In this document: one piece after another, positions 4,217 through 58,849 of the stretch
Layout: the number at the start of each line of letters is the position of its first letter
How positions within the stretch are numbered: the first letter of the stretch is position 1
From: Planctomycetota bacterium
GTDB taxonomy: Bacteria; Planctomycetota; Phycisphaerae; UBA1845
DNA length: 64,000 nucleotides
Assembly (NCBI GenBank): GCA_016860685.1
Contig: BOJX01000003.1
Span: 1 to 64,000, forward strand
Reading direction: 5' to 3'
Translations under genes and position numbers: made by a program
Notes under the pieces: generated by a model
The model's database searches: none
The model's input: the letters and a program-made list of their open reading frames with translations, nothing else
Told to the model about the DNA's origin: nothing

Positions 4217-4229
4217 CGGAGTCTCCCGG

Positions 4230-5668: not shown

Positions 5669-5671
5669 GAA

Positions 5672-11845: not shown

Positions 11846-11861
11846 AGGTCAGGTTCCATCG

Positions 11862-28600: not shown

Positions 28601-30819
28601 TACTCGGAGGTTGCGGCGACGGACGCTTTCGCAGCGTGCCCCGCGTCAAGGTTCCAGACGGCATCTTTCTGAAGGTGAGCGACCGGGACTGCGGACGGCT
28701 CGACGTGGAACAGGTCGGCCGCGAATGCCTGGATGTCGGACGCGGGAATCCACGGCGCACCGAGATTCGCGTCGATATCGCCGGGCAACACGTCCTCGGG
28801 CTGCACGCGCCGCAAGGTCTCGGCGTTGCGGGCGTAAGCGGGGCCGGCCTGCTCGGCCCTGGCGAGCTTGGCGCGCACGTTGCCGGACAAATAGGCATCG
28901 GCAGTCTTCCACGTCTGCGATTCCGGGTCGTGGAAGATCAGGTCTCCCAGTTCGGTAATGACCTGCTCCTCGGGCTTGCCGTAGAGGCCGGCGATGAACG
29001 GCAAATCCACCGTTCCCCGCTGGTTGAGTGAAACGAGCAAGCCTTCCTCGGCGCTGCGGACGTGGGTGACGGGCGGCGTCTTGCCGACCACATCCTTCGT
29101 CATGATGGCGGCCCTGGCAGCTTTTCCCGTGACCTCGTCGTACTCCTCCAGCGACATGACCAGCATGGCGTCGGGGTCTTCGCTGAACTTCACGAGGTTG
29201 GGCCGGCGGCGGATCACGTTCCCGTCGCCGGTTGCATTGAACGTGGTCTTGTTGATCGGGCCATACGCACTTTGGAATCGGTCGTAGGCGCGATTGAGAT
29301 CCCGGCGTGCCGAGTCGCGGTGTTCCGCGGGCCAGCCCTCGTTCTGCGATTGCAGCACGCGGCGCGCGCGGTCGCGCAAATCGACCAGTGCGGCCAGTCG
29401 CCGGCCGGTCCGCGTTCCGTTCGCTTTCAGCGTGGTTCCGCCGTACACCACGGGCACGGCCTGTCTGCCTACCGACTGGCAGAGCGTCTGGTCGGGGCCG
29501 ACGAAGAAGCTCCCTTCGTTGATGTGGCGTTCGGGCGGCGGCGGTGAGAACGCCGCGACCGGCTCTTGTTCTTCGGTCGGAGATGCTTGCGATGGAGCGA
29601 ACTCCGGCAATCGGCGGATGGCGTTCTTTAGCTGGCCGGCCAACTCGCCGTTGCCGACGACGCTGTACCCCTCTCCGCCGTAGAGCGTGTCCTTCCGCGT
29701 CCAGGAGCCGAGGACCATTTCGGGATGACTGAGGAAGTAGCGATTGACTGGGACCGCGACCCCTTCGACGGCCAGCGGCGCGATGCCGAGCCACTGCGGG
29801 TCGGCGTGATGTGCCGGTTCATTCGCGGCGCGTTTGCGCAGAAAAACGATGTCGGTGACGACGGCGGTGCCTTCGCGCTTGAAGGCGTCGGACGGCAGCC
29901 GAACCGCCCCGACGAAATCAGCCTTCGCCGCGAGGTATTCGCGGATGGCGGCATTCTGCTTGTCGAGCGTGAAGTGCGTCGTGACAAGCGCGAGCACGCC
30001 GCCGGGCTTCAAGGCATCCACGGACTTGGCGAGAAAGTAATCGTGGATCGACAGCTTCTGCCCGTGATAGTCGAGCTTGATGTCGGCGAACGGCACGTTG
30101 CCGATCACCGCGTCGATGCGATCCGCCGGCAGACGGGTGTCGCGGAAGCTCTCAATGCGGATGTCCTGGTCGGGGTGAAGCGCCCTAGCGATGCGCCCCG
30201 AAACGGAATCCAGTTCGACGCCGATGAAGCGATAGCGGTCGCTTCCCTGGCTCATGAAGTTGCCGGTGCCGCATCCGGGTTCCAGGATCACGGCGTTGCC
30301 GGGAACGCCTAACCGCGTGATGGCCTCATGGATGGCCGCGATGACGGTGGGAGACGTGTAGAAGGCGTTGAAGGTCGTGCGTTTGGCGCTGTCGTACTCC
30401 GCGGGGCTGAGAAGCGCCCTCAACTCCTCGCCCAAGCCCTGCCATGCGGCATCCTTGTAGTTGCCGGTTACTGGGTCGGGAAAGATCGACAGGGCGACCG
30501 GACCGAAGCCGGCGAAACGCGAGAGCACCTGCTTCTCGTCCGGCGAGGCAAGCCGCTGCTCGTCCTCGATTCGCTTGAGCGTGCGGATGGCGGCGATGAT
30601 GTCGCGGGCTTTCCCCTTCTCGCCGCCGGCGATCTGGCCGGACGAAGCCGGCGCCATGTCTTCAGGCCGGGACGCGGGCGAATCGGAAGGTCGGGGTGCT
30701 TCGGTAGATGCCGCGGTGTTGCCGACCGGGGCCTGCGAGTCTTCTCTCGGCCCTGGCGGTTCTGGTTTGTCAGCGGCCGGCTCAGTCGGAAGCGCGTCAA
30801 ACAGCGACGGAGTTCGCAA
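25636..30819 (-). CDS. Giant methyltransferase-helicase fusion (DarB-like anti-restriction type)
   Basis: About 1727 aa. An N6-adenine methyltransferase region has motif I LEPGCGTGNF and motif IV NVPFADI. It is followed by an SF2 helicase with HAVGAGKT (Walker A), FIDEAH (motif II), TGTPISN and QREGRILRQGN (motif VI). Such fusions occur on plasmids, ICEs and phages; P1 DarB is the best known and guards DNA from restriction. The start is uncertain: a TTG at 30,819 lies just past the stop of the preceding small gene, while the open frame upstream overlaps that gene and looks non-coding. Confidence 0.8.
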   Translation of the reverse strand: MRTPSLFDALPTEPAADKPEPPGPREDSQAPVGNTAASTEAPRPSDSPASRPEDMAPASSGQIAGGEKGKARDIIAAIRTLKRIEDEQRLASPDEKQVLSRFAGFGPVALSIFPDPVTGNYKDAAWQGLGEELRALLSPAEYDSAKRTTFNAFYTSPTVIAAIHEAITRLGVPGNAVILEPGCGTGNFMSQGSDRYRFIGVELDSVSGRIARALHPDQDIRIESFRDTRLPADRIDAVIGNVPFADIKLDYHGQKLSIHDYFLAKSVDALKPGGVLALVTTHFTLDKQNAAIREYLAAKADFVGAVRLPSDAFKREGTAVVTDIVFLRKRAANEPAHHADPQWLGIAPLAVEGVAVPVNRYFLSHPEMVLGSWTRKDTLYGGEGYSVVGNGELAGQLKNAIRRLPEFAPSQASPTEEQEPVAAFSPPPPERHINEGSFFVGPDQTLCQSVGRQAVPVVYGGTTLKANGTRTGRRLAALVDLRDRARRVLQSQNEGWPAEHRDSARRDLNRAYDRFQSAYGPINKTTFNATGDGNVIRRRPNLVKFSEDPDAMLVMSLEEYDEVTGKAARAAIMTKDVVGKTPPVTHVRSAEEGLLVSLNQRGTVDLPFIAGLYGKPEEQVITELGDLIFHDPESQTWKTADAYLSGNVRAKLARAEQAGPAYARNAETLRRVQPEDVLPGDIDANLGAPWIPASDIQAFAADLFHVEPSAVPVAHLQKDAVWNLDAGHAAKASVAATSEYGTARANGTWLLELALNMKSPVIYDVIDHGDREERVVNQEDTMAAREKQKLIKERFRAWVFTDPERTERLVRLYNDTYNNLRPRLFDGSHLDFPGMNQTIRLRPHQADAVWRGMSSGNTLLAHAVGAGKTYTMAATGMKMKQAGLIKKPMYVVPNHLLEQFAREFMQLYPNAKLLVATKDDLSRDRRKLLTAKIASGEWDGILVTHSSFERIGMSRDYQEKFLIEQIAEYDELLREHAEAKGSNRNLIKAIEKQKAARVERLKDLLAEDKKDDGLVFDELGVDHVFIDEAHFFKNLETPTKMERVAGIQTGGSERAFDVYMKASFLGEQHAGHGVTFATGTPISNTMVEMYTMQRFLDPDGLKTRGLEHFDAWAATFGEVIDTMEISPDGASLRPRSRFARFTNLPELQQMFRAFSDVQTAGMLDLPQPQLETGKPIVVACPMSAEQHALQEKLVERYERLRSEKVDPRVDNALNITTDGRKLAIDARMLSAAAADFAGSKVNRMVENVAAIWERTAATRGTQMIFCDMGVHPTPWGYSAYDDVIEKLVAGGIPRAQIAAIGDADSDAKKQALFEKVRNGSVRVLIGSTQKMGTGTNVQQRLVALHHLDAPWKPAEVEQREGRILRQGNTNKEVAVYRYVTEGSFDAYMWQALETKARFIGQVITGNNAARRAEDVGGQELSYAEVKAIASGNPAVLTLAEADAELQRLALLKKQHIDEQYVARRSVRDLPGTIAGLSERLSNLTADQSVAAARAGDPIAIGGRTYSREDAPSVLGGQLDALPREIRQERRIPLGVFRGLRFGLVLHPQFPAEVYLEGATTRHDRLLRGSHGPRAVFNALDRLAGAYGAEIARVRQDLSIAEAQLRDYQARIGKPFVHDAYQSALTSLRDQLKVSLSGATPEPGNEPPPSASELAERIKALKAEHTIEAAPERAGNRRLDAEEPVTVRIRRRTESPSGTDAATPPDTPERAFRGMRADPSTDTRSFRF

Positions 30820-30824
30820 CCATT

Positions 30825-31142
30825 TCAGGCGTGCGACGTGTGACGGCGGATGAACGCGATTGCGGCGTCCAGCGAGAGCGGTTGCGGATCGTTCGGAGGA
30901 AACGCGAGCCGCAAACGACTCTCCACTTCCTGGAGGGCGATCTCCAGAGCCGCGCTCGCGGCCTGGCTCGGGTCGATGTCCGGCCTGTCCTCGGTCAGAT
31001 TCTCCTTCCAGGATTCGTGGCGGGTCTTCAGCTCCCCGGCGAAGTTGTCCACCACGGCGAGCAGCTTCCGCTTCCTGCGTAGCAGGTCGTGGAGCTTCGG
31101 TCGCTGTCGCAGAAGTTGGAGGATGATCGTCTTGTACTGCAT
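30825..31142 (-). CDS. Hypothetical helical protein upstream of the methylase-helicase
   Basis: 105 aa, starting MQYKTIILQLLRQRPKLHDLL with GGAGG 5 nt upstream. It is mostly helical and charged (RRKRKLLAVVDNFAGELKTRHESWKENL), with a C-terminal AIAFIRRH. No domain recognised. Proteins of this kind often precede the DarB-like gene on mobile elements, and here the stop lies 6 bp before the proposed TTG start, so the two are likely cotranslated. Confidence 0.7.
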   Translation of the reverse strand: MQYKTIILQLLRQRPKLHDLLRRKRKLLAVVDNFAGELKTRHESWKENLTEDRPDIDPSQAASAALEIALQEVESRLRLAFPPNDPQPLSLDAAIAFIRRHTSHA

Positions 31143-31380
31143 GTTGACCTCCATCGTGTGAATCGGGCGGTTCTTCCAGGGCGACTGGCGGATCATCGGG
31201 ATCGGACTCGAACGGCAAGAATGGATGCTGCGGGGGGCGCGACCTCCGGCGCATGGTCAGGAACGATCACGGTTTTTTCGTTCCCGACCTGCACGTCGGC
31301 CCTTGGGTCGTCTATTTGGCGTTCGACCAGCCATGTTCCCGCATTGTGGTTATTCACGATTTCACATAGCACACTCTGGA

Positions 31381-31704: not shown

Positions 31705-31824
31705 ACCGTCACGACTTGTCGGTCGGCCGTCAGGACCAGTCGGCATACCGACAGAAACCGCTTGCGCCTTTGTCGGTCATGTGCCAGTGTGTTGACTGTC
31801 TACAGACACATTCGGAGGCGGAAA
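31705..31824 (+). other. Candidate replication origin/operator region before the replication gene
   Basis: TTGTCGGTC occurs at about 31,717 and TTTGTCGGTC at about 31,771, with the dyad TCGGCATACCGA between them and a TGTCT-AC-AGACA dyad at about 31,798. Iteron-like repeats and dyads just before a replication-initiator gene are usual for plasmid origins. The repeats are few, so this is tentative. Confidence 0.35.
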
Positions 31825-32451
31825 ATGACGGCAGAACGACAGACCGCGGCGGTGTCCGCGAATCAGATCAGTACGAAGCGGGGCTTCCCTGTCTACCGCA
31901 CGAATCCGAGCGTGCCGTCGGCGAACGGGATCACGACGCGGACCAAGCGGTTCCACGTGCCCGGCGGCAGGGGCTCGGTCATCGTGGATAACAGCAGCGG
32001 CGAGATCAAGGGCCTCGGCGGCATGGGCTTCTGGTGGGAAGAGGAAGTGGACAGCAGCCGGTTCGTGAAGCTCTTCCTCGACGGCATCAAGCAGGCGGCG
32101 GACCTCTCGAAGACGGGGATGCAGGTCTTTGAACTCGTCTACCACGAAATGCGGGCCAATCCCGGATCGGACGAAATCAAGCTGAATCAGTACGTGGCGA
32201 AGGATAACGGGATCAACGACCGAACCTATCAGCGCGGCGTGCGGGAGTTGCTGGAGAAAGAGTTCCTGTACCGGAGTCCGAGCGACGGCGTGTTCTTCGT
32301 GAACATCCGGTTCATGTTCAACGGCGACCGCCTCGCCTTCGTGCGGTCGTACCACTTGAAAGGCGCCGGCCGGCAACAGGAGCTTCAACTCGGCGACACG
32401 GCGGCGCTCCCCTCGCCCCCGCCGGTTGGTTCGGTGGATCAAGACAGATAG
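31825..32451 (+). CDS. Plasmid-type replication initiator (winged-helix)
   Basis: 208 aa. After a 60-residue N-terminus, the central region reads LSKTGMQVFELVYHEMRAN...VAKDNGINDRTYQRGVRELLEKEFLYRSPSDGVFFVNIRFMFNGDRLAFV, a winged-helix layout like RepL/RepA-type plasmid initiators. GGAGGCGG lies before the ATG at 31,825; a longer start is less likely. It is next to partition genes and putative iterons, so the element probably replicates transiently or can persist as a plasmid after excision. Confidence 0.65.
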   Translation: MTAERQTAAVSANQISTKRGFPVYRTNPSVPSANGITTRTKRFHVPGGRGSVIVDNSSGEIKGLGGMGFWWEEEVDSSRFVKLFLDGIKQAADLSKTGMQVFELVYHEMRANPGSDEIKLNQYVAKDNGINDRTYQRGVRELLEKEFLYRSPSDGVFFVNIRFMFNGDRLAFVRSYHLKGAGRQQELQLGDTAALPSPPPVGSVDQDR

Positions 32452-32762: not shown

Positions 32763-33440
32763 CTACGTTGATGCCGGCTGCCGTCGCATGGACGGCTTCG
32801 CGGTCTTGCGGACCGCCTCGGGGACCAGCTCGCGGAAGAGCCGGTCAACTTCGATGGCTGCCTCCCGCGCGCGTGATCCCAGTTGCCAGACGACCGCCGC
32901 CTGGCCCGGCGCGTCGGCGTAAATCTGGCGCAGCGTCATGAACGTCGGCGTGATGGGAAGCTTCAGCAAAGCCGCGGCTTCCCGCATGTCCTGCGTGAGC
33001 CGGTAGTTTTTTCCGACCATGCTGAGCACGATCTTGGCCTTGGGCATCCCGGAGCGAATCTTCTGCGCCTGGCGCAGCACCTTCGTGGCCGCGTCAAGCG
33101 CCCGGATTTCCAGCATGGATGCCTTGCACGGAACGATCGCCGTATCCGCCACGAGCAGCAACGCCCTGCTCGTTTCGGCAAGGCTCCCCGGCCCGTCGGC
33201 CACGACGTAGTCGGTGTCCTGGGCGAGCATCGGCAGGTCGCTGATGATGTCGTCCGGGTCGCGTAGGCAAAGCGCCTTGACCTGCGGAGCGGCCTCACGA
33301 ATCCACTGCGACGATGACTGTTGGGTATCGCAGTCGGCGAGCGTCACCCGGTGGCCCTGTTTGTCGAGCCAAGCGGCCAGGTGGACGGCGAGTGTCGATT
33401 TCCCGACCCCGCCCTTGGAGTTCGCCACGGCGATAATCAT
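32763..33440 (-). CDS. parA: ParA-type partition ATPase
   Basis: 225 aa. The deviant Walker A motif SKGGVGKST is at residues 8-16, followed by VTLADCDTQQSS (A') and VVADGPGSL (Walker B region). Short ParA proteins of this size (type Ib) lack an N-terminal HTH and work with a small RHH partner, which is present next door. No Shine-Dalgarno is seen; a TAGCAA box lies only 10 bp before the ATG, so translation may be leaderless. A repeat array upstream is the probable centromere. Confidence 0.9.
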   Translation of the reverse strand: MIIAVANSKGGVGKSTLAVHLAAWLDKQGHRVTLADCDTQQSSSQWIREAAPQVKALCLRDPDDIISDLPMLAQDTDYVVADGPGSLAETSRALLLVADTAIVPCKASMLEIRALDAATKVLRQAQKIRSGMPKAKIVLSMVGKNYRLTQDMREAAALLKLPITPTFMTLRQIYADAPGQAAVVWQLGSRAREAAIEVDRLFRELVPEAVRKTAKPSMRRQPAST

Positions 33441-37838: not shown

Positions 37839-37844
37839 CGAGTG

Positions 37845-40484
37845 ATGCTCCGCATCACTCAGAACAGCACGGCTGAAAGAGCCAAGAGTTACTATTCCAC
37901 CGCCGATTACTACACGGAGGGACAGGAGCTTGTCGGCCTCTGGCGCGGCAAGGGTGCGGAGCGCCTGGGCCTTTCGGGAAGCGTGGAGCGCCAACAGTGG
38001 GACGCGCTCTGCGACAACCGCAACCCGGCGACGGGCGGCGTGCTGACGCCGCGGCAGAAGCGGGACCGTCGCGTCGGCTACGACTTCAACTTCCACGTTC
38101 CCAAAAGCGTGTCGGTGCTCTACGGCCTCACGCGGGACGATCGCATTCTGCAAGCGTTCCGCGATTCGGTGGACGTGACGATGGAGGACATCGAAGCGGA
38201 CATGCAGACGCGCGTACGGGCCAAGGGCAAGAACACCGACCGCACGACCGGCAACATGACCTGGGGCGAGTTCGTGCACTTCACGGCCCGGCCGGTGGAC
38301 GGTATCCCGGACCCTCACCTTCACGCCCACTGCTTCTGTTTCAACCAGACCTGGGACGCGGAAGAGTCTCGCTGGAAGGCGGGTCAGTTCGCGGGGATCA
38401 AGCGCGACGGCGAGTTCTTCGAGGCCGTGTTCCATTCCCGCCTGGCACGGCGGCTCGAGGAACTCGGGCTGCCAGTGGAACGAACGAGGCGCGGCTGGGA
38501 GATTCGCGGCGTGCCGCAGTCGGCGGTCAAGAAGTTTTCGCGGCGGACGGCGCTCATCGAAGAGAAGGCAAGAGAGAAGGGCATCACGAATCCCGATGCC
38601 AAGGGTGAACTCGGCGCGAAGACGCGCGAGCGGAAGGTCAAGGACCTGTCGATGGATGAACTCCGCGAACAGTGGGCCTCGCGGCTCTCGCCGGAGGAAC
38701 TCGCGGCGCTCACCGCCGTCCGGGGCCGGCTCGGCGGCGACGGCATCCCGGAGGACGGCCGGCTGGTCGCGGAGTCGGTGCTGCACGCGGTCGGACATTG
38801 CTTCGAGCGCAGCTCGGTGGTGCCGGAGCGCAAGGTCCTGGCGGAAGCGCTCAAGCGTTCCCTCGGTTCTGCATCGCCGGATGTTGTGCGTCGGGCGGTG
38901 GACGCGCAGGGCCTTGTCGTCGGCGAGCGGAACGGACGGCGCATGGCGACGACGCGCGAGGTACTCGCTGAAGAGCGGAAGATGATCGACTTCGCGCGTA
39001 AGGGAAGGGGAGCGTGCCGCACGCTCGGTTCTGCAAACCGCGCGTTCACGCGCGACTGGTTGAACGCCGGCCAGAAGCAAGCCGTGCGGCACCTGCTCGA
39101 ATCACGCGACCGCGTGATGCTGGTCCGCGGCGCCGCGGGTACCGGCAAGACGACGATGATGAAGGAAGCCGTCGAAGCGATCGAAACTGCCGGGACGCCG
39201 GTCCACACCTTCGCGCCGTCGGCGGATGCCAGCCGCGGCGTGCTGCGGGAAGAGGGATTCGGCGATGCCGACACGGTGGCCCGGCTGCTTACCGATCAGT
39301 CCTTGCAGGCACAGGTGGCCGCGGGCGTGGTCTGGATTGACGAGGCAGGCTTGCTCGGCACGCGGATGATGGGTCAGGTTTTCGACCTGGCCGACCGGCT
39401 TGATTGCCGGGTGGTCCTCTCCGGCGATCGCCGTCAGCACGGCAGTGTCGAGCGCGGGGCGGCGCTGCGGCTGCTGGAGGAAGAGGCAGGTCTCAAGCCC
39501 GCGGATATCCGCGACATTCAGCGCCAGAAAGGCGACTACATGTCGGCGGTGCGGGCGCTCTCCGACGGCCGCATTGACGATGGCTTCCGCCAGCTCGACA
39601 AGCTCGGGTGGATTCGCGAAGTAAACGAGACGGAGCGCTACAAGTCGCTGGCGGAGGACTACGTCGCCACAATCGCCGACGAGAAGACTGCGCTCGTGGT
39701 GTCGCCCACGCACCTGGAGGGGGAATGGATCACCGATGAAATCCGCGCACGTCTGAAGCAGGCCGGCCGGCTCCAGGGCGGCGAGCATCGGCTGCTCACG
39801 CTGGAGAACGCGAACCTCACGGAGGCAGATCGCGCGGAGGCGGCGAGCTACGAACCGGGCGACGTGCTGGTGTTCCACCAGAACGCGACGGGATTTCGCA
39901 AGGGCGAGCGCGTCGTCGTCGGCGACGATCCACTGCCGCTCGACCATGCGGACAGGTTCCAGGTATTCCGCCAAGGCGTTCTGCCGGTCGCTGCCGGCGA
40001 CATCCTGCGTATCACGCGCAATGGCATGACGGCCGACGGTGAGCACCGGCTCAACAACGGTGCGCTTTACACGGTCAAGGGATTCACGAAGGCCGGCGAT
40101 ATCCGGCTCACGAACGGATGGACGATCTCGAAGGACTATGGGCACCTGGCCTATGGGTACGTCGTGACAAGCCACGGCTCACAAGGAAAGACGGTCGATC
40201 GCGTGTTCATCGGCCAGTCGTCGGAGTCCCTGCCGGCGTCGTCGCGCGAACAGTTCTACGTCTCGGTGTCGCGCGGGCGCGAGCGGGCGACGGTGTACAC
40301 GGACGACAAGGAAGCCTTGCTCGAAGCCGTGAGTCGTTCGGACGAACGGCTGACGGCGACGGAATTCATCGAAGGCCGCGAGATTCGCGACCGCGCCGCT
40401 GCGCTGCACCGCATGGAGGGACTGGCCGGCCGCGACAATGTGCCGGCGCACCCGGAACGGGAAGGAGTGAACCATGACAGATAA
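37845..40484 (+). CDS. MobF-family conjugative relaxase-helicase
   Basis: 879 aa. The relaxase domain has the paired catalytic tyrosines Y16-Y17 (and Y22-Y23) and the metal-binding histidines in GIPDPHLHAHCF. The second half is an SF1 helicase with Walker A GAAGTGKTT, DEAGLLGT (motif II) and C-terminal VTSHGSQGKTVDRV / YVSVSRGRERATVYT. MobF relaxases nick at oriT and unwind the transferred strand. At 879 aa it is near TrwC size. The first ATG at 37,845 is chosen because the -10 box ends 6 nt before it; no ribosome-binding site is seen. Confidence 0.95.
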   Translation: MLRITQNSTAERAKSYYSTADYYTEGQELVGLWRGKGAERLGLSGSVERQQWDALCDNRNPATGGVLTPRQKRDRRVGYDFNFHVPKSVSVLYGLTRDDRILQAFRDSVDVTMEDIEADMQTRVRAKGKNTDRTTGNMTWGEFVHFTARPVDGIPDPHLHAHCFCFNQTWDAEESRWKAGQFAGIKRDGEFFEAVFHSRLARRLEELGLPVERTRRGWEIRGVPQSAVKKFSRRTALIEEKAREKGITNPDAKGELGAKTRERKVKDLSMDELREQWASRLSPEELAALTAVRGRLGGDGIPEDGRLVAESVLHAVGHCFERSSVVPERKVLAEALKRSLGSASPDVVRRAVDAQGLVVGERNGRRMATTREVLAEERKMIDFARKGRGACRTLGSANRAFTRDWLNAGQKQAVRHLLESRDRVMLVRGAAGTGKTTMMKEAVEAIETAGTPVHTFAPSADASRGVLREEGFGDADTVARLLTDQSLQAQVAAGVVWIDEAGLLGTRMMGQVFDLADRLDCRVVLSGDRRQHGSVERGAALRLLEEEAGLKPADIRDIQRQKGDYMSAVRALSDGRIDDGFRQLDKLGWIREVNETERYKSLAEDYVATIADEKTALVVSPTHLEGEWITDEIRARLKQAGRLQGGEHRLLTLENANLTEADRAEAASYEPGDVLVFHQNATGFRKGERVVVGDDPLPLDHADRFQVFRQGVLPVAAGDILRITRNGMTADGEHRLNNGALYTVKGFTKAGDIRLTNGWTISKDYGHLAYGYVVTSHGSQGKTVDRVFIGQSSESLPASSREQFYVSVSRGRERATVYTDDKEALLEAVSRSDERLTATEFIEGREIRDRAAALHRMEGLAGRDNVPAHPEREGVNHDR

Positions 40485-40890
40485 GTCGATTCTCCAGCGC
40501 TACGCGATGCGAAACGGTGACGCGGCAAACGGCAACGCCACGCCAGCCGACGTGGAGGGTACCGATGACCTGGGCGCATTCGGGTGGCTCCGCGGGATTC
40601 GGGACCGGGCCGTGAGCCTGGAGCTGCGGAAGAAGGACGGCAACATCCTGGCCGTGAGCTACGGCTACATGGACAAGGCGGAGTTCGACCCGTCCGAAGG
40701 CATCACGGTGTCGGTCGGCGGACAGAAGATCCGCATCAAGGGCCGCAATCTCAACGCACCCGTCAGGCCGACCGTTCGGTTATTCGAGGGCATCACGCGG
40801 CATCGCGTACCCTGGATTCGCGAGGCGGCTCACGTTGAAAGCATGCACGCCGATGACAACGTGACGATCATCGACAGCCTCGACTGGTAG
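40474..40890 (+). CDS. Hypothetical protein coupled to the relaxase, 138 aa
   Basis: Overlaps the relaxase end by 11 bp, so it is translated from the same mRNA. The C-terminal two thirds has a regular strand pattern (VSLELRKKDGNILAVSYGYMDKAEFDP, GITVSVGGQKIRIKGRNL, TVRLFEGITRHRVPWI), suggesting a small beta domain. No known family. A relaxosome accessory role is plausible from position only. Confidence 0.65.
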   Translation: MTDKSILQRYAMRNGDAANGNATPADVEGTDDLGAFGWLRGIRDRAVSLELRKKDGNILAVSYGYMDKAEFDPSEGITVSVGGQKIRIKGRNLNAPVRPTVRLFEGITRHRVPWIREAAHVESMHADDNVTIIDSLDW

Positions 40891-40955: not shown

Positions 40956-41747
40956 ATGCAGCAGCGCATAGTACACGAAGGCCGAAGTGCTTCGACGGGT
41001 ATGACGATCATGGAACTGACCGTCGGACTTGTCGTGATCGGCCTGCTCGCAGGGATGATCCTGGTGGGGCGCGAACTACTGGAGTCCGCGACCATGCATC
41101 GCGCTGTATCGCAAGTTGGCCGGGTTCAAACCGGCATCAGCCTGTTCCGGGCAAAGTACAGCGCGTTCCCTGGAGACTTCGCCAAAGCGAGCCAGTATTG
41201 GCCCGGACAAGGCATAATCGATGGCGACGGTGATGAACGGATCGGCGGCGGGTACCTGAGCGACGTGAGCGCGGTGGCCGATGGATCGCTGGAGTGTTAC
41301 AACGCATGGAACCACTTGGCGGCGACAGGTGTGCTGGAGTGGCACGCGGAACCCGTGAGTGCCCCTCCGACCGCGGCGCAGACCGTGGCGATGCCGGGCG
41401 TGCTGGATCGCTCCTATCTTGGCCTGCATCATGACGGAGCGACCTACGGGTACGGCGTTGAGAGCAATTACATCACGCTGACCCGGCTGGCGCTGGGAAC
41501 CACGCGTGAATCATTTCGTGGTATCGTGTATGGGATGCTGACGCTCCCGGGGGTCAGTGACGTCGGCCTTCGGCCGGCGGTGGCCGCCCGGTTTGATGCC
41601 AAGGCGGACGACGGACAGCCGCTCACCGGGGCGGTAACGGCCGCATATCCGGGTGGCGCCTGCTCTGACGCGAGCGCGAACACCTATCTGTATGCCCAGA
41701 CTCGAAATAGCTGCGGATTGTGGATCGCGTTCTCAGCCGCACAGTGA
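40956..41747 (+). CDS. Type IV prepilin-like protein 1
   Basis: 263 aa from ATG 40,956 (272 from 40,929). A 15-residue basic leader ends in G, followed by MTIMELTVGLVVIGLLAGMILVG: the prepilin peptidase site with Glu at +5 and a hydrophobic alpha-N helix. After it comes RAKYSAFPGDFAKA, shared with the two following proteins. The rest is a globular domain with paired cysteines at the C-terminus. It would be a pilin or pseudopilin processed by the host's PilD. Such proteins are unexpected on a MobF element. Confidence 0.85.
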   Translation: MQQRIVHEGRSASTGMTIMELTVGLVVIGLLAGMILVGRELLESATMHRAVSQVGRVQTGISLFRAKYSAFPGDFAKASQYWPGQGIIDGDGDERIGGGYLSDVSAVADGSLECYNAWNHLAATGVLEWHAEPVSAPPTAAQTVAMPGVLDRSYLGLHHDGATYGYGVESNYITLTRLALGTTRESFRGIVYGMLTLPGVSDVGLRPAVAARFDAKADDGQPLTGAVTAAYPGGACSDASANTYLYAQTRNSCGLWIAFSAAQ

Positions 41748-41823
41748 CGGGCCGTGGCCATCTGGCTGATGCTCAACCTCGTAGAGCCCATGCTGGTCCG
41801 CCTTGCGCACCTCGCTAACCGGA

Positions 41824-41928
41824 TCAGGGGGTGGCCGGGTGTGGCCGCGGTCTGCTGACAGCGCGGGCGGCAATCGCGAGCGTTGCCGCGAGACCGAAAC
41901 GCCCGAGTCTTGGAATCCATGTACGCAT
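41824..41928 (-). CDS. Possible short exported peptide, 34 aa
   Basis: MRTWIPRLGRFGLAATLAIA followed by a basic, proline-rich tail resembles a cleavable or anchoring N-terminus. A PHO-box-like site lies about 75 bp upstream on the same strand. The ribosome-binding site is weak, so this may not be translated. The rest of the 370 bp between the two prepilin genes has no other candidate. Confidence 0.25.
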   Translation of the reverse strand: MRTWIPRLGRFGLAATLAIAARAVSRPRPHPATP

Positions 41929-42002
41929 AAAGGTCGTTCCCAGTTCGAGCGGCAGCAGGGCACGGTCTGTCGCCTTTCTTACACGTCACTACGTTCCTTC
42001 AC

Positions 42003-42020
42003 TGTGACAGTTTGATGACG
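42003..42020 (-). promoter_or_regulatory. PHO-box-like direct repeat, site 6
   Basis: Minus strand CGTCATCAAACTGTCACA, a very good match to the PHO-box pattern (GTCA units 11 bp apart). It points toward the short 34-aa frame and has no clear -10. Confidence 0.45.
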
Positions 42021-42066
42021 GTTCGATGAACAGTCCGTGACAATCGGCGGCGGCGGGCCACCTGGA

Positions 42067-42097
42067 AACCATTTGTTAACCACGGCAGCCATAGACT
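42067..42097 (+). promoter_or_regulatory. PHO-box-like promoter, site 7 (prepilin 2)
   Basis: AACCATTTGTTAACC (42,067-42,081), AACC units 11 bp apart, then TAGACT (42,092-42,097). AAAGGA lies between the predicted transcription start and ATG 42,119. Confidence 0.6.
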
Positions 42098-42118
42098 GAA
42101 GGGAAAGGACACCGGACA

Positions 42119-42874
42119 ATGGCCTTGCACCTAAGCACCGCGCGCCGCGGGTTCACGTTGCTGGAACTGTCAGTCGTGCTGGTTATCATCGGCCTGGTGG
42201 CGGGCGGGATACTCGTCGGCAGCGAGCTGATCGCCCTTGCCGAACTGAAGAGCGTCATGCGGCAGTTGGAGTCTTACAACACCGCGGTAAACACGTTTCG
42301 CGTCAAGTACGGCGGGCTCCCTGGAGATTTTGTGCAAGCTGTGGAATATGGTCTGGGGGATGCGGGTTGCCCGACCGCGAACCCCTGCCCCGCGACACCG
42401 ACGGGATCGTATGACTACGCGGGATGCAATGGGAACGGGAACGGGCGGCTCGATGACCTGGGCGTTGGAACCGACCTCGCGTGGTGCCCTGAGAACCTGA
42501 ACTTCTGGCATCATCTGAGCCGAGCGAGCCTGATAGAAGGTTCGTACGACGGCAAAACCCTGACTGGCGGTGGCTGGGAGCCGCAGTACGGAATATCAAG
42601 CCCGGTAACCAAGCTGCGCGGGATCGGCATCTGGGTTATGCTCGATCAGTACTATCTTGGCATCCGGCAGGGGGACGGCGCCCCGCAGCTCTCGACGAAG
42701 GAGGCTGCATATCTGGATGAGAAGATGGATGACGCGCTGCCGCTGACGGGTCGCGTTCGGCTCCTGATCGGATTTGGATGCAATACAGGAAACAGCTACA
42801 ACACGCGCGCCCTGCCGGGCGTGACGCCGGAACTCTGCTCGCTGAGGATATCCGGCATCCCTGGGTTCCAATGA
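42119..42874 (+). CDS. Type IV prepilin-like protein 2
   Basis: 251 aa. Short leader MALHLSTARRG, then FTLLELSVVLVIIGLVAGGILVG with Glu at +5, and FRVKYGGLPGDFVQAVE. The globular part contains NGNGNGRLDD and WHHLSRASLIEG, motifs shared with prepilin 3, and several cysteines. It overlaps the next gene in an ATGA (42,871-42,874), so 2 and 3 are one translation unit. The three proteins look like successive duplications; 2 and 3 are most similar. Confidence 0.85.
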   Translation: MALHLSTARRGFTLLELSVVLVIIGLVAGGILVGSELIALAELKSVMRQLESYNTAVNTFRVKYGGLPGDFVQAVEYGLGDAGCPTANPCPATPTGSYDYAGCNGNGNGRLDDLGVGTDLAWCPENLNFWHHLSRASLIEGSYDGKTLTGGGWEPQYGISSPVTKLRGIGIWVMLDQYYLGIRQGDGAPQLSTKEAAYLDEKMDDALPLTGRVRLLIGFGCNTGNSYNTRALPGVTPELCSLRISGIPGFQ

Positions 42875-43740
42875 ATGGCGCGCTGGTCGTGATTGGGTTT
42901 GGGCCACGAGGTCCAACGAAACATGCCGCGACAACGAACGTCTGCTTTGTAAGCGGTTTCACTCTCGTCGAGCTTTCGATCGTGCTGCTTATCATCGGAT
43001 TTGTGGCAGGCGGCATACTTGTCGGCAGGGCGCTCGTGCATACGGCGGAAATCAGAAGCGTGCTGACGCAGCTCGGGCACTATGATGCTGCGGCAATGAC
43101 GTTCAAGAACAAGTACGGCGGCCTGCCCGGCGATCTCGCCCAGGCTGAGGAAGCGGGGCTGGCCGAAGCGGGGTGTCCCGACGTATACGGTTACGGGGAT
43201 AATGAGTGCTTCTACGCCGTGGTCCTGCGCGCCGGGTGCAGCGGAAACGGCAACGGCATGTTCGACGACGGTAACGGGGCAGCGAATTATCTGAATTGCC
43301 CGGAGAACCTCAACTTCTGGTATCACCTGAAGCAGGCAGGGCTGCTGGACGGGCCGGCCGATGGTAAAACCGTGTCGGACATAAACCCCGTATGGGGACG
43401 GCCGATCTTCGGCGCCTCGGCACCGCTGACGCGCCTGCGCAATGTCGGTATCATGGTGGCGACCTACACACCACTGCCGCCCCGTCGTGCGAATTACTAC
43501 ACACTTGGTCTGTCCGATCGCTACGATATATTGCCGTCAGCGCGGACGAAGGCGCTTCGCGGCCACGAAGCATTCACGATAGACAACAAACTGGATGACG
43601 GGCTTCCGACAACAGGCAGAGTGCTGGTCTATGTTCTATCAATGCCGCAATGCATTGCGGCCGGCCAGTACAGGATGGCTGACGAGACCAGCAACTGCGG
43701 CTTGTTTATCAATACGGCCGTGCTGGGCGGCCAGCAGTAA
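42871..43740 (+). CDS. Type IV prepilin-like protein 3
   Basis: 289 aa from ATG 42,871, which overlaps the stop of prepilin 2. The leader is unusually long (about 34 residues, ending SG) before FTLVELSIVLLIIGFVAGGILVG. The 'KYGGLPGDLAQAEE' segment and GNGNGMFDDGNG, CPENLNFWYHLKQAGLLDG match prepilin 2. Cysteine pairs near the C-terminus suggest a disulphide loop as in type IV pilins. The long leader could instead mean a later start, but no better ribosome-binding site is visible. Confidence 0.85.
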   Translation: MNGALVVIGFGPRGPTKHAATTNVCFVSGFTLVELSIVLLIIGFVAGGILVGRALVHTAEIRSVLTQLGHYDAAAMTFKNKYGGLPGDLAQAEEAGLAEAGCPDVYGYGDNECFYAVVLRAGCSGNGNGMFDDGNGAANYLNCPENLNFWYHLKQAGLLDGPADGKTVSDINPVWGRPIFGASAPLTRLRNVGIMVATYTPLPPRRANYYTLGLSDRYDILPSARTKALRGHEAFTIDNKLDDGLPTTGRVLVYVLSMPQCIAAGQYRMADETSNCGLFINTAVLGGQQ

Positions 43741-43794: not shown

Positions 43795-43825
43795 TAACCA
43801 TTTGTTAGGCGTTGCCTGGTATGAT
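43795..43825 (+). promoter_or_regulatory. PHO-box-like promoter, site 8
   Basis: TAACCATTTGTTAGGC (43,795-43,810), half-sites 11 bp apart, then TATGAT (43,820-43,825). It shares the word AACCATTTGTTA with site 7, so the two may be a recent duplication. Confidence 0.6.
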
Positions 43826-44418: not shown

Positions 44419-44832
44419 CTATTGGCACGTGAGGGTGCCACTGATCACGTTGCCGCTGATCGAGATGAACGGCACCGGCGTACCTTCTCCCATGGCGTAT
44501 TGACATAGAGCGTCAGCACCCTGATTGCAGAGCGCCGGCGCATAATCAGGGAAGTACAGTGAGGTCGTGAGGCTCAGGACCTCGATGCCGTTGAGAATGC
44601 CGCGGTACTGAACCCAGAATACGCCTTGCTGATCGATACTGGATTTGCAGGAAATGGAGGCGCTCGATGGAAGGACGGCAGAGGCCGCGTCGTCCGCCGC
44701 TGGCTCGGCGGCCACAGTGGTGGAACCGGACATCGTGGGCTTTCTGGCCTCCGCCTGGCTCGTCATGGAAAGAACCGCCGCTAGCGCCACAAGGCCAGCG
44801 ATGCCAGCCACTCTTATTGGTGAAGATTGCAT
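44419..44832 (-). CDS. Secreted hypothetical protein, 137 aa
   Basis: Signal peptide MQSSPIRVAGIAGLVALAAVLSMTSQAEA, then an Ala/Thr-rich linker and a small domain with three or four cysteines (SISCKSS, ALCNQGADALCQYA, GTLTCQ). The strand pattern suggests a small beta domain with disulphides. GGAGA lies 6 nt before the ATG. It has a PHO-box-like promoter. No family recognised. Confidence 0.7.
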   Translation of the reverse strand: MQSSPIRVAGIAGLVALAAVLSMTSQAEARKPTMSGSTTVAAEPAADDAASAVLPSSASISCKSSIDQQGVFWVQYRGILNGIEVLSLTTSLYFPDYAPALCNQGADALCQYAMGEGTPVPFISISGNVISGTLTCQ

Positions 44833-44915
44833 ACATTTCTCCGTTGATAGGTTGATAGAACTGGGTCGCAACGCCGGTGAGGCCAAGCGACATGAGGCGA
44901 ATCCCTCACGATCCC

Positions 44916-44949
44916 AGCCTACCATAGAAGTGTGACATATTTATGACGC
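44916..44949 (-). promoter_or_regulatory. PHO-box-like promoter, site 9
   Basis: Minus strand GCGTCATAAATATGTCACA (44,949-44,931), almost the PHO-box consensus, followed by TAGGCT (44,921-44,916). It drives the secreted 137-aa protein, with a leader of about 80 nt. Confidence 0.65.
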
Positions 44950-45103
44950 TTTGATGAAGGTTCTGGGATGGCTGCACCGGCACAACGAGCGGCGCTTGAC
45001 CGCGGAGGGGGCTTGGCCGGTCGCCCCACCGATTGGCGGCGAGCGATGAAGGCACGCGCAGCAACGGCATGGGCTACGCCGGCGCGGGTTGTGGAGGATC
45101 CGC

Positions 45104-45481
45104 TCATTTCATTCCAGCGAGGGCGCACTTGGCAAGGCACTCGGCGAAGGTAAGTCCCCGCGAAACGTCATTGCCAATCGTGCAGTACGTGTCGGTACCA
45201 AACCGGTCGGTCGAGACGTGGTAAGAGCACTGAAACTGCCCGTTGATGTACCCCCAGTGCATAACGCAGTTGCTACCGGGAATGTAGTCAAAGTTGAGGC
45301 CCTGAAACGGCACCCTGGTATCGCCGCCGCCGCAAGACAGTTCGCAACTGTAACAGTCGATGGCAGGATTGTACGACGCGTGCCCCCTAATCAGGCTGAT
45401 GGTCGCAAGGGCGGGCGTACTGGCGAGAAGAAGCATCAGCACACCAGCTACGGCAGATATCTTGAAGTGAGCGTGTTCCAT
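45104..45481 (-). CDS. Secreted cysteine-rich protein, 125 aa
   Basis: Signal peptide MEHAHFKISAVAGVLMLLLASTPALA. The mature part has eight or more cysteines (DCYSCELSCGG, NCVMHW, QCSYH, YCTIG, ECLAKC), arranged for several disulphides. No family recognised. It follows the 131-aa secreted gene by 18 bp and is probably cotranscribed with it. Confidence 0.7.
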   Translation of the reverse strand: MEHAHFKISAVAGVLMLLLASTPALATISLIRGHASYNPAIDCYSCELSCGGGDTRVPFQGLNFDYIPGSNCVMHWGYINGQFQCSYHVSTDRFGTDTYCTIGNDVSRGLTFAECLAKCALAGMK

Positions 45482-45499
45482 AATAGCCTACCTCACTGC

Positions 45500-45895
45500 C
45501 TATGGCCTGGGACAAGTGAAGCTCTGGTATGGCAATGCGTTCACGAAGACCGTGACAGTTACAGAGTCTGTTACTTCCGGAACGATCTCGCCGTACTTGG
45601 TCCAGCACTCGTTGCAGTATTGCTCAGTCGTTGCCGGTGCCGTCAATGGCCCAAGGTAGGTTCCAGGCATTGGGGAATAACACGCTGCCGTTACCTTGTT
45701 CTCCAACGGAGCAGGGGTTCCGCCGGACGGATTCGAACCGAATGTGCCCGAGGGGCAGTTGAGCCCCAGCGGATTCAAGAGACAGGGCGGCTGGCCGCCG
45801 GCTGCGTGAGCGGAAAAGTGAGCGGTCGCAAGCAGCGCGACGGCTGCTGCTGTGACGGCGCGTCCGGTAAGACGGCGGTAAGTACGATGTGTCAT
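45500..45895 (-). CDS. Secreted cysteine-containing protein, 131 aa
   Basis: Signal peptide MTHRTYRRLTGRAVTAAAVALLATAHFSAHA, then GGQPPCLLNPLGLNCPSGTFG, ACYSPMPG, YCNECWTKYGE and SFTCPRP. The cysteines suggest an extracytoplasmic fold. First gene of a two-gene operon with a PHO-box-like site about 70 bp upstream. The shorter start at 45,895 is preferred because it begins directly with the signal peptide. Confidence 0.7.
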   Translation of the reverse strand: MTHRTYRRLTGRAVTAAAVALLATAHFSAHAAGGQPPCLLNPLGLNCPSGTFGSNPSGGTPAPLENKVTAACYSPMPGTYLGPLTAPATTEQYCNECWTKYGEIVPEVTDSVTVTVFVNALPYQSFTCPRP

Positions 45896-45962
45896 AGTGT
45901 CATCCTGTAGTATGTTGATGAGATCATCGTAACACCGTACTGTGACTGTTGTGTGTCCGTTA

Positions 45963-45980
45963 TGTGACATATTTGTGACA
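45963..45980 (-). promoter_or_regulatory. PHO-box-like direct repeat, site 10
   Basis: Minus strand TGTCACAAATATGTCACA, two TGTCACA units 11 bp apart. A second, looser pair (GTCACAGTAC...GTTACG) lies closer to the gene, so the promoter may contain more than one box. No TAnnnT at the usual distance. Confidence 0.6.
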
Positions 45981-47055: not shown

Positions 47056-48087
47056 CTATCGGCCACGCATGCCCGGGCCGGGAATGTCGCGGCGCAGGTC
47101 TCCCTGGGACAGGGACCGACGGCAACGCTCCAGTGCAAGGCTCTCCAGATGATGAACATAGGTCTTGGACAGCCCCAGCTTCTGGCCTATTTCCTTGCAC
47201 GTATGACACGGTCCGTTGTCGAGACCGAAACGAAGGCGTAAAACCTCACGTTCGCGGGGCTTCAGGGTGTGGAGCACGCGCCGGAGCTGCGCGGTCTCCT
47301 CGGCGGCCATCATAGAGGCCCCCGGAGGGGCTTCGCGCTTGCCGTCGGGGTGTGAATCCAGCATCCCGTCGTCGGCCGGCGCTATCAGCATGGATCGGGA
47401 GACCGTGTTCCTCACATCCGAAGCGAGGAACGACTTGAGTCCGCCTTGGACGAAGGTGGTGAAGCAGGCATTGCGATCTGGACGGTAGCGGAAGAGCGCC
47501 CGGTCGAAGCGATCGTACGCCAGGTCCAATACATCGTCATAGTCAATGCGTGGAGTATATCGGTCGTACACGCGCTGTGCCGCGACGCGGATGAGCCGGT
47601 CGTGTGCGAGCTTCAGGGTGCCGCCAAGCAGGCCGCCCGCGGGCGTGCGAAGTATCGCCGCATATCGGCGCTGCACGGCGTCCTTGTCCTGAAAGGCCAC
47701 ACCGACGGCGGAGGTAATGTCCGGCGGCGGATAGAGTGCGTGGTCGCTCTCCAACGCGATCCACTGCGTAATCAATGATGAGACAATGGCTTGGTGCAGC
47801 GGGTACATCCGCGAGTCGCCCGTATGATCGGACAGGGCGCGCGCGGCATCCTCGATTCCCTTTTTCGCGTGCCGGATGGCTTGAGGGCCGTCGGCCTGCC
47901 GGCGAACGATTGCGCCGATGCCGTCGCCGAACGCGAGGTCGTCGAGCATAGTTGCGTTGTCGGCGTTCCGGGAATACCTGCCGTGGTCGGTGTATTGATC
48001 GACGAACCGCTCCCAAAGTGGAGCAAGTTCAGCGGGACCGTGGAACGGGACGATTCTTGACCCAATCGAATCCAAGCCGCCCGTCAC
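47056..48087 (-). CDS. Sigma-70-family factor carried by the element
   Basis: 343 aa. The middle (YDDVLDLAYDRFDRALFRYRPDRNACFTTFVQGGLKSFLASDVRN) fits region 2 of sigma factors. The C-terminal 60 residues are region 4: LKPREREVLRLRFGLDNG followed by the HTH TCKEIGQKLGLSKTYVHHLESLALERCR. The N-terminal 150 residues are unusual. It lies 64 bp after a small membrane-protein gene, within a PHO-box-controlled operon, so the element may build a second regulatory layer through it. Confidence 0.8.
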   Translation of the reverse strand: MTGGLDSIGSRIVPFHGPAELAPLWERFVDQYTDHGRYSRNADNATMLDDLAFGDGIGAIVRRQADGPQAIRHAKKGIEDAARALSDHTGDSRMYPLHQAIVSSLITQWIALESDHALYPPPDITSAVGVAFQDKDAVQRRYAAILRTPAGGLLGGTLKLAHDRLIRVAAQRVYDRYTPRIDYDDVLDLAYDRFDRALFRYRPDRNACFTTFVQGGLKSFLASDVRNTVSRSMLIAPADDGMLDSHPDGKREAPPGASMMAAEETAQLRRVLHTLKPREREVLRLRFGLDNGPCHTCKEIGQKLGLSKTYVHHLESLALERCRRSLSQGDLRRDIPGPGMRGR

Positions 48088-52203: not shown

Positions 52204-53031
52204 ATGCCGAAGCGAGTATTTCAGGATGTTCCGACGGAAAAGCCTGTCTCTTGGGGAAACGTGCGGGAGCGATTCGTCGAGGAAGAGCAGGTCTCGCTCG
52301 CGCAGAGTATCGCCCAGAACGGCATCCTCGTCCCGCTGCTCGGGCATTCCGAAGGCGACCGGATCGTCGTCGATGACGGGCATCGCCGGCTTGACGCGGC
52401 GAAACGTGCGGCCCTGCCCACGGTGCCGATGATCGTCGCCGAACACGCTCCGACGGCGGCGGAGCGCGGGATGCTTCAACTTCTGGCCAACACGCTACGC
52501 GTTGATTTGAAGATCATGGAAAAATCCCGCGCCCTTGCCGGGCTGATGAAGGAAACGAACTGGTCGGCGGCGGACGTGTCGCTCAAGCTCGGCGGGCCGT
52601 CTCCCGCATCGATCTCCAAGCTCCTGACGCTGCTCGTTCTGCCGCGCGAAGTGCAGGACTTCATCGACGCCGGGCGCATCCCCATGAGCAGCGCGTACAT
52701 CATCGCAACGGTCGCGGACGCCGCGGAACGCGAGCGACTGATTCAGGAAGTCCTCAGTGGCCGGCTCACGCGCGATCGCCTGGTGGCACAGACGAAGGCG
52801 AACAAGTCGGCAGCGGGCGTCACTCGGCCGCGCAAGCCACGGCAGGCACGGCGCGAGCGCTTGGTCATTCCGCTCGGGCCGGGACGATCGGTCGCGCTGT
52901 CCGCTCCGACGCTGAGTGTCGAATGCGTCCTCGCCTGGCTCACGGACCTCGTTGATCGAATCAGGACCGCCGGCGCTAACGGCCGCGCGCTGGGCGATGT
53001 CGTCAAGGAACTTGCGGCAAATGCCAAGTAG
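52204..53031 (+). CDS. parB: ParB-like nuclease/partition domain protein
   Basis: 275 aa. N-terminal ParB/Spo0J domain with IxxNGxLxPLLGH...VVDDGHRRLDAAK (GHRR box), then an HTH region (NWSAADVSLKLGGPSPASISKLLTLLVLP) and a basic C-terminus. It lies far from ParA, next to the coupling protein, so it may serve transfer or regulation rather than segregation. A partial copy precedes it. Confidence 0.85.
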   Translation: MPKRVFQDVPTEKPVSWGNVRERFVEEEQVSLAQSIAQNGILVPLLGHSEGDRIVVDDGHRRLDAAKRAALPTVPMIVAEHAPTAAERGMLQLLANTLRVDLKIMEKSRALAGLMKETNWSAADVSLKLGGPSPASISKLLTLLVLPREVQDFIDAGRIPMSSAYIIATVADAAERERLIQEVLSGRLTRDRLVAQTKANKSAAGVTRPRKPRQARRERLVIPLGPGRSVALSAPTLSVECVLAWLTDLVDRIRTAGANGRALGDVVKELAANAK

Positions 53032-53157: not shown

Positions 53158-54660
53158 ATGTTCGGATTGTTTCGGAACAAGCAGAAGCTCAAGACTGCGA
53201 AACACGCCGCGGCGTGGAACATGGACGCGGCGGTTCTGAAGCTGTCGAACAATGAGTTCATCTCCCTGCTCTGGGCGATGGCCGGGCTGTTCATCGCGGG
53301 CATGACGGGGAGTTCCAAGAGCACGTCGTCCGCCAAACAGGCGGCGCGGGCGCTGCTTCGGCTGGGCTGTGGCGGACTAATTCTCACAGTAAAAAACGAG
53401 CGGGCGATGTGGGAAAAACTGTGCAAAGAGGAAGGCCGGCTCGACGACCTAGTGATTTTCAATCCGCAGAACCCCTGGCGGTTTGATCCGATTTTGCACG
53501 AGACCGAACGCAAGGGTCCCGGCGCGGGGATGACGGAAGTCATCGTCGAGCTTCTCATGACGCTGGTTGAGTTCACGTCGCGGGATCGGAATCAGGGCAG
53601 CCGCGAGAACGAAGCGTACTGGCGGAATTCCTGCATGCGCCTGCTGAGGTCCGCTACCGATTTGTTGCTGCTGGCCGGTCGCCGCGTGACGGTGCGTGAC
53701 CTGTACCGCGTAGTGATCAGCGCGCCGCAATCGCTCGCCGATGTCGTCTCGGAGCAATGGCGCCGCTCGTCGTTCTGCTACGAGTGCCTCGCCGAAGCTG
53801 ACAAGCGGCCGCGAACTGCCAGTCAGACAGCCGACTACGAGATCGTCGCTGACTTCTTCTTGGCCGAGTTTCCTGGAACAAGCGATAAGACGCGCAGCAT
53901 TACCGTGTCCCAATTCACGTCCACGTGTGACGTGCTGCTCCGCGGCACGCTGCGTGAAATGTTCGCCGGCGGGACGAACATCACGCCCGAAGCGACGGAA
54001 GAGGGACGGATCATCCTTGTCGATATGCCGCTCAAGACCTGGGGGGCTGTCGGTCTTTGCGCGAATCTCCTGTGGAAGACGGCGTTTCAGCGGTCGATTG
54101 AACGCCGTGACGTGCGCGTCAGCCCTCGTCCGGTGTTCCTGTTCGCCGACGAAGGGCACTACTACCTGCATCGTGACGACAGCCTTTTTCAGACGACCTG
54201 CCGCAGTTCGCGGTGTGCGTCGATCCTTGTGACCCAGAACATCGCAAACCTCGACGCCGCGTTGGGCACGGGTGACGCCGGACGCGCCGAAGCGGAGAGC
54301 CTGCTCGCCAACTTCGGCACGCTGATATTCCACTGCAACACCTGCCAGCGCACGAACGCGCTGGCATCTCAGCTCTGCGGCGAGCAGCGCGTGCTGATGG
54401 CGAGCGGCAACTCGACGTACGACGCCGACTCTCAATGGTCTGGCGTACTGGGCCTCGACTGGCTCGGTCACAGCGGGAGCACCTCGGCCGGATTCAGCGA
54501 GCAATACCGACCAATTCTAGAGGCGGCGGCGTTTACGCGCCTGAGAGCGGGCGGCAAGGTCAATGGATTCGAGGCCGACGTGATCGTGGTCAAGAGCGGC
54601 GATTTGTTTCGGAGCACGGGCACAACGTGGCTGCCCGTGACTTTCCGACAGGACTTTTAG
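53158..54660 (+). CDS. VirD4/TraD-type coupling ATPase
   Basis: 500 aa. Walker A GMTGSSKST at 48-56, Walker B VFLFADEGHYY, and the conserved FVTQN-like segment SILVTQNIANLDAALG with ANFGTLIFHCNT. Coupling proteins bring the relaxase-DNA complex to the transfer channel. The N-terminus contains only a weak membrane stretch (FISLLWAMAGLFIAG). Serine replaces the usual glycine in the P-loop (GSSK for GSGK), worth noting. The genes that follow may supply membrane partners. Confidence 0.85.
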   Translation: MFGLFRNKQKLKTAKHAAAWNMDAAVLKLSNNEFISLLWAMAGLFIAGMTGSSKSTSSAKQAARALLRLGCGGLILTVKNERAMWEKLCKEEGRLDDLVIFNPQNPWRFDPILHETERKGPGAGMTEVIVELLMTLVEFTSRDRNQGSRENEAYWRNSCMRLLRSATDLLLLAGRRVTVRDLYRVVISAPQSLADVVSEQWRRSSFCYECLAEADKRPRTASQTADYEIVADFFLAEFPGTSDKTRSITVSQFTSTCDVLLRGTLREMFAGGTNITPEATEEGRIILVDMPLKTWGAVGLCANLLWKTAFQRSIERRDVRVSPRPVFLFADEGHYYLHRDDSLFQTTCRSSRCASILVTQNIANLDAALGTGDAGRAEAESLLANFGTLIFHCNTCQRTNALASQLCGEQRVLMASGNSTYDADSQWSGVLGLDWLGHSGSTSAGFSEQYRPILEAAAFTRLRAGGKVNGFEADVIVVKSGDLFRSTGTTWLPVTFRQDF

Positions 54661-56109: not shown

Positions 56110-56265
56110 ATGGCTCTGTTCAATCTCATCATCAACGTCGTCGGCTGGTACCTGATCCTGCGGTATGTGGCTCCGCGCGTCGTCCGGTTCCTCGCCGGAA
56201 ACCCGGAAGTCGCCAAGGGCGGAGCCTCACTGCTCAAGCGGCTGTTCAAGTGGCTCATGGCGTGA
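56110..56265 (+). CDS. Micro membrane protein 3, 51 aa
   Basis: MALFNLIINVVGWYLILRYV is the membrane helix; AGNPEVAKGGASLLKRLFKW is the shared tail. GGAGGTG precedes the ATG. With copies 1 and 2 it forms a tandem family of single-span peptides with conserved tail and diverged helices. Confidence 0.7.
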   Translation: MALFNLIINVVGWYLILRYVAPRVVRFLAGNPEVAKGGASLLKRLFKWLMA

Positions 56266-56323
56266 CGCAGAGCGGGCGCGGCGTCTAGCCGCGCCATGTC
56301 CGCAATCGAAAGGAGCGATAGCC

Positions 56324-58792: not shown

Positions 58793-58849
58793 ACCTGCGA
58801 CCTCTGGACCCCCAGTCCAGCACTCTAAACCAGGCTGAGCTACGCCCCG
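58774..58849 (-). tRNA. tRNA-Pro(GGG)
   Basis: 76 nt. Acceptor CGGGGCG / CGCCCCG with discriminator A, D-stem GCTC/GAGT, anticodon stem CTGGA/TCCAG around CTGGGGG (anticodon GGG), T-arm GCAGG-TTCAAAT-CCTGT. CCA is not encoded. It is the insertion site of the element, whose recombinase overlaps its 3' end. Confidence 0.95.

Follow-up and report, generated by a model that had tools for sequence, protein, structure and literature searches.

A prepilin cassette at a fixed position downstream of the relaxase operon in a mobilizable integrative element from Planctomycetota

Results

Prepilin genes p1, p2 and p3

The window, that is, the whole stretch of 64,000 nucleotides analysed here, lies on a contig of 67,548 bases (C3) in the 3.92-Mb draft of the host genome (G000; 437 contigs, 90% complete). 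The three prepilin genes of the original prediction were found as intact, uninterrupted open reading frames on the forward strand: p1 (40956-41747, with an alternative in-frame start at 40929), p2 (42119-42874) and p3 (42871-43740). The expected type III signal with glutamate at position +5 was present in all three proteins (cleavage sites G↓MTIMEL, G↓FTLLEL and G↓FTLVEL), as was the common KYxxxPGD motif, which reads KY(S/G)(A/G)(F/L)PGD. With a leader, a G↓F/M site, Glu+5 and a hydrophobic helix, all three have the sequence features of the type IV prepilin superfamily (PF07963/TIGR02532). The TIGR02532 cut-off was exceeded by p2 and p3, with p2 having the best N_methyl score (31.6 bits). On the N_methyl profile alone p1 scored a sub-threshold 15.2 bits (cut-off 21.2), and it was recognised only through a family profile.

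The proteins could be aligned from end to end (38-47% identity to p2), and the alignment showed a C-terminal D-K-DD-P-G motif common to them. We defined the KYxxxPGD family by a full-length match that includes both motifs, and p1, p2 and p3 belong to it. Together they scored 232-268 bits on the family profile, with p1 at 232 bits, a value that expresses family likeness and is no independent test because the profile alignment includes the window proteins. p3 is a tandem paralogue of p2 (~49% amino acid identity), and as its ATG lies on the p2 stop codon (ATGA), translation of the two is probably coupled. p1, which has an orthologue with 46% amino acid identity on a G457 element, starts ~40-65 nt 3' of the stop of the preceding gene at 40474. 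Profile searches of the prepilins found no known adhesin domain, and an AF2 model from three sequences had a pLDDT of 38 and gave no usable structure.

Upstream of p2 lies the 12-base sequence AACCATTTGTTA (42067-42078, +). A second exact copy (43796-43807; 0.04 expected in the window) is located upstream of an open reading frame for a 73-aa secreted protein with a signal-like N-terminus. The repeat could possibly be a shared regulatory site; it was absent from the sibling elements in which it was sought.

The mobilizable element

The genes had been placed on a mobilizable element, and the window agrees with this: it contains a relaxase, an integrase and attachment-site-like repeats at a tRNA gene. 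The backbone gene for a MobF/TrwC relaxase-helicase (880 aa; 37842-40484, +) is followed by that for a conserved 138-aa protein with no assigned function (40474-40890, +), whose reading frame opens just before the relaxase stop; directly 3' of this gene starts the cassette slot. In sibling elements the variable slot extends as far as the gene for a ParB-like protein (52204-53031, +). Beyond it are genes for a TraG/TraD-like coupling ATPase (T4CP, 500 aa; 53158-54660, +), a J-domain protein of the backbone (56165-57043, +) and a large serine recombinase (57299-58792, +), likely the integrase of the element. The recombinase gene runs into a tRNA-Pro(GGG) gene (58773-58849, -), the likely integration target, whose 3' end lies within an 81-bp repeat. 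The two copies of this repeat (912-992 and 58705-58785; 91% identical) are likely the element ends, which would give a size of ~58 kb. The left copy is contained in a second serine recombinase gene (196-1083; 39% identical to that at 57299-58792), which suggests a possible tandem integration of two elements at tRNA-Pro.

The backbone further includes ParA (32763-33440, -; 71-89% identical in five sibling stretches) and a RepL-like protein (31762-32451, +; 84-86% identical in siblings). An SNF2-type helicase of 1872 aa (25636-31254) with a weak methyltransferase-like match is 74-80% identical across siblings and is either a backbone or a defence gene. The nearest plasmid-borne relaxases came from Planctomycetota (three) and Runella (one).

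Other cargo was also observed. PADLOC identified a likely, complete-looking type III CBASS at 3467-6751, with a NucC-like effector (3467-4333), TRIP13 (4230-5162), HORMA (5159-5668) and a cyclase (5672-6751), and matches to HmaC, HmaB and HmaA, a helicase-methylase-ATPase defence set, at 8486-19581. An unassigned open reading frame of 426 aa (14795-16075) lies between HmaB and HmaA. A sigma-70 region 4 protein (47056-48087), with a 35% identical relative in G429b, is encoded close to the cassette slot. The secreted cysteine-rich proteins at 44419-45970, which had been proposed as adhesin partners of the prepilins, had no homologues in the compared element stretches, and no evidence linked them to the cassette. 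Nor did anything point to a connection of the cassette with phosphate limitation.

Distribution of the cassette

Searches with a profile of five sequences gave full-length matches in a single additional genome (G105) among 392 from the phylum, and in G429, G447 and G450 among 60 relatives. A scan of genome contigs gave one match, limited to the N-terminal signal region. The element relaxase was present in 23 of the 114 genomes of the order. When the best candidates per genome (at most 21) of these 114 genomes, most of them drafts, were scored with a 14-sequence profile, 14 family members were found at 8 loci in 5 genomes, and all of them lay within ~5 kb downstream of the relaxase of this element family. 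The prepilin of G105, which is outside the order, likewise adjoins the relaxase end within ~5 kb. The genes might have been chromosomal in relatives and on the element only by chance; among the candidates scored within the order this was rejected. A viral origin was rejected as well, since no relatives were found in phages or viral contigs.

Among 28 further relaxase stretches, a few of which end too early for the cassette to be judged, it was present in three, all from G457, and most of the others were without it. The carriers are thus 8 of ~24 judgeable element copies (the window, two in G429, one each in G447 and G450, and three in G457), and each has one to three intact prepilin genes. As about two thirds of the sibling elements have no cassette, it is accessory, transfer does not need it, and a universal requirement for the prepilins was rejected. 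In the window and in a G457 element, 39-84 nt separate the 40474-type gene from the start of the first prepilin; in G429b and G457c, prepilin and relaxase are encoded on opposite strands. In other elements the slot holds unrelated cargo, read from the sequence as recombinases and as kinase-like and toxin-antitoxin-like open reading frames.

Cassette swapping between elements

Element G457a, with a prepilin, and G437a, without one, were 90-95% identical outside one discrete block that contains the prepilin. Counted from the relaxase start, the first 2,976 bases were 92% identical; the differing block then measured ~1.8 kb in G457a and 0.4 kb in G437a, and beyond it followed a ~950-base block at 90% and a long stretch at 95%. 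G447 and G450 were ~89-92% identical until just after the 40474-type gene, from where no DNA homology was detectable until 5.4-11 kb past the relaxase start.

The relaxases of G429a, G450 and G447 had 92-94% amino acid identity and a dS of ~0.4, and their position-matched prepilins 37-48% identity and a dS from 1.5 to saturation. Such high synonymous divergence indicates that alleles were replaced by diverged ones, and not that the proteins changed fast alone. For the same prepilins pN was well below pS; the cassette alleles are under purifying selection. Together with the break in homology at the cassette, this identifies it as a swapped cassette in a fixed slot. Within the prepilins, conservation was higher in the N-terminal 60 residues than in the C-terminal part. 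The ParB and T4CP genes were likewise more diverged than the relaxase, so that the mosaic extends beyond the prepilins. In a tree with many open forks and unsettled bootstrap values, the element prepilins were intermixed with chromosomal genes of the Pseudomonadota genomes G568 and G860, and orthologue pairs across elements, kept across host families, were recovered. The intermixing would tend to count against a single origin of all element prepilins.

Relatives on plasmids and in Pseudomonadota

The original prediction called for a survey of such prepilins on other elements. Family members are indeed present on plasmids with mobilization genes, but the family is not specific to elements. On Frigidibacter pcai42B a MOBP relaxase gene is followed by two genes and then a family prepilin, and T4CP fragments and a J-domain gene are also present. 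Singulisphaera acidiphila pSINAC03 carries a family prepilin with MobF, ParB and T4CP, and Acuticoccus p4 one with a T4CP relative and MobA/L. An annotated prepilin was absent from five comparison plasmids with a relaxase or T4CP relative (Nitrosospira, Skermanella, Roseibium, Paludisphaera and the K2D stretch), whose gene tables are incomplete.

In Pseudomonadota, family matches at E <= 1e-14, some of the N-terminal half only, were found in 44 of 399 genomes, and the members are at least partly chromosomal. One locus combines a secretin, a prepilin, PilB and PilC, another a secretin and a prepilin, and a third context PilB/PilC with ABC-transporter genes; orphan copies occur in G568 and G860. 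These contexts, type IV pilus operons among them, show that prepilins with this motif form a broad family. ABC-transporter genes adjoin the family member in some Pseudomonadota (L192, L194). No MobF relaxase was identified among the scanned neighbours of the Pseudomonadota prepilins.

Pilus machinery of the host

As had been stated, neither a prepilin peptidase nor an assembly ATPase was found among the window open reading frames searched. The suggested check of the host genome for PilD and PilB yielded a prepilin peptidase, platform proteins and PilB-like ATPases. Two PilB-like ATPases, PilC and PilT form one cluster on a single contig; PilT scored above its cut-off, and the PilB-like ATPases and PilC gave strong matches under the equivalog cut-offs. 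A prepilin peptidase and T2SSF (PilC/GspF) proteins were present in all six carrier genomes. The host encodes 39 proteins with a prepilin (N_methyl) signal, and only p1, p2 and p3 fit the family beyond the signal region; the others reached at most ~30 bits on the family profile, over the signal region and little more. Three further N_methyl proteins, without the KYxxxPGD motif, are encoded in the flank past tRNA-Pro just outside the window (G000:C3:64257-66545).

VirB4, the ATPase expected of a self-transmissible ICE with a VirB-type T4SS, was not detected in the carrier genomes. VirB4 searches with PF03135 were negative in the six carrier genomes and three plasmids and positive in 5 of the 114 genomes of the order; with PF19044 two controls from the same order were positive, whereas the six carriers and two plasmids gave no match. 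These negatives, obtained in part from an incomplete host genome, are compatible with a divergent VirB4 or with help from a second cell.

Discussion

A proposed role for the cassette

We tentatively propose, with somewhat less than even confidence, that the three genes, in their fixed slot after the relaxase operon, are an accessory cassette of minor-pilin-like subunits that are built into host pili and set mating contact or recipient range. The prepilins would be made together with, or near, the relaxase, be cut by the host prepilin peptidase and then be incorporated by the PilB and PilC of the host into its type IV pilus or into a related pseudopilus. The divergent C-terminal domains may then alter what the pilus binds, so that the donor would gain contact with, or choice of, recipients, and swaps of cassette alleles between elements would change the binding specificity. 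The original prediction held that the prepilins must borrow host machinery: the host does encode a peptidase, PilB, PilC and PilT, and we infer from this the processing and assembly of the element prepilins. The data suggest that the cassette pilins re-dress the host's own pili, probably for the benefit of an element reaching new cells.

We favour a role tied to mobilization on the basis of the slot behind the relaxase, the mobilization genes around family members on unrelated plasmids, the host machinery, the secretin, PilB and PilC next to family members in Pseudomonadota, and the PilV-like diversity (PMC9045228). Mating contact or recipient choice is preferred to the two other roles that had been put forward, modification of host pili and adhesin formation, with none singled out firmly. 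Counting against mating are the many sibling elements without a cassette, the unrelated cargo in the slot, the opposite-strand prepilins of G429b and G457c, and the negative searches for an adhesin domain and a usable structure. In a bolder version, the elements would move without a VirB-type apparatus: the DNA would pass from relaxase and coupling ATPase into the type IV pilus or pseudopilus machinery of the host, and the element pilins would adapt this machinery to conjugation and to the recipient. We consider this very unlikely.

The absence of prepilins from most elements and the filling of the same slot by unrelated genes elsewhere would also be expected if the slot after the 40474 gene were an insertion hotspot and the pilins adhesin or biofilm cargo that helps the host to stick to surfaces or cells, with no part in transfer. 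Two Pseudomonadota genomes in which relatives outside elements are chromosomal, and often orphans, fit this too. Yet the candidates scored in the 114 order genomes include no family member elsewhere, though the elements have other variable regions, and the family recurs among mobilization genes on plasmids of unrelated bacteria; we regard such cargo as unlikely, if worth keeping in mind. Alleles that are deeply diverged, occupy one fixed slot and are under purifying selection would be expected from an arms race no less than from adhesin variation. The element pilins might protect the cell: phages that bind pili, or competing elements, would fail to recognise the altered host pilus, and allele swapping would reflect the arms race. 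The same element does carry a complete-looking type III CBASS (cyclase, HORMA, TRIP13, NucC) and an HmaABC set. The cassette, however, sits behind the relaxase and outside the defence island at 3.4-19.6 kb, and the phages and viral contigs searched held no relative, so that we judge protection rather improbable. Like adhesin cargo, protection would account for a good part of the observations on which the mating reading rests.

Ordinary pilin genes might also have been captured once as chance cargo, with no selected function on the element, and their patchy distribution would be in keeping with this. Their repeated occurrence in one slot, as one to three intact genes per element, the low pN relative to pS of the position-matched genes and the orthologue pairs across host families argue against it, and this explanation is already disfavoured and very unlikely.

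If the proposed role in mating contact is right, mobilizable elements that build no pilus themselves can steer recipient contact through a few swappable subunits in host pili, which would make the cassette a low-cost equivalent of the IncI shufflon. Such a role would also offer a way to approach the spread of elements with a relaxase and a coupling ATPase in bacteria in which VirB4 was not detected. The locus is defined and testable, and lies in lineages whose conjugation has hardly been studied.

Comparison with known systems

A literature search, with subscription papers mostly outside its scope, returned no account of elements of this kind that carry orphan prepilins. The cassette proteins share the N-terminal signal and hydrophobic helix with the T2SS/T4P pseudopilins GspG, GspH and ComGC, but the match is limited to the first ~60 mature residues, is far under the equivalog cut-offs and does not extend to the large C-terminal domain. 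Chromosomal KYxxxPGD prepilins of Pseudomonadota match the profile in full length, including the D-K-DD-G motif; unlike the window genes, they lie in secretin/PilB/PilC operons, beside ABC transporters or as orphans. The 32-kb plasmid pSINAC03 resembles the window in having MobF followed by a small gene, ParB, T4CP and ParA, and one family prepilin. It differs in that its relaxase is only 39% identical, its prepilin lies ~4 kb away on the opposite strand, and it is a free plasmid.

IncI plasmids carry a plasmid-borne pilus and a shufflon in addition to a VirB-type system. Like PilV and PilS of R64 and TP114, the window proteins are pilins with a type III signal on a transmissible element. The PilV minor-pilin variants of TP114 are adhesins that select recipients (PMC9045228). 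The minor pilin has a variable C-terminal region, a feature comparable to the divergent C-termini of the cassette proteins. The window prepilins gave no match to the PilV profile, and the window open reading frames searched included no peptidase, PilB or PilC, and hence no pilus assembly operon of the element's own. By analogy, the cassette pilins may be PilV-like in function, not by homology. In contrast to IncI PilV/PilS, the element carries orphan prepilins only, and the source of their diversity is the swapping of whole cassettes between elements.
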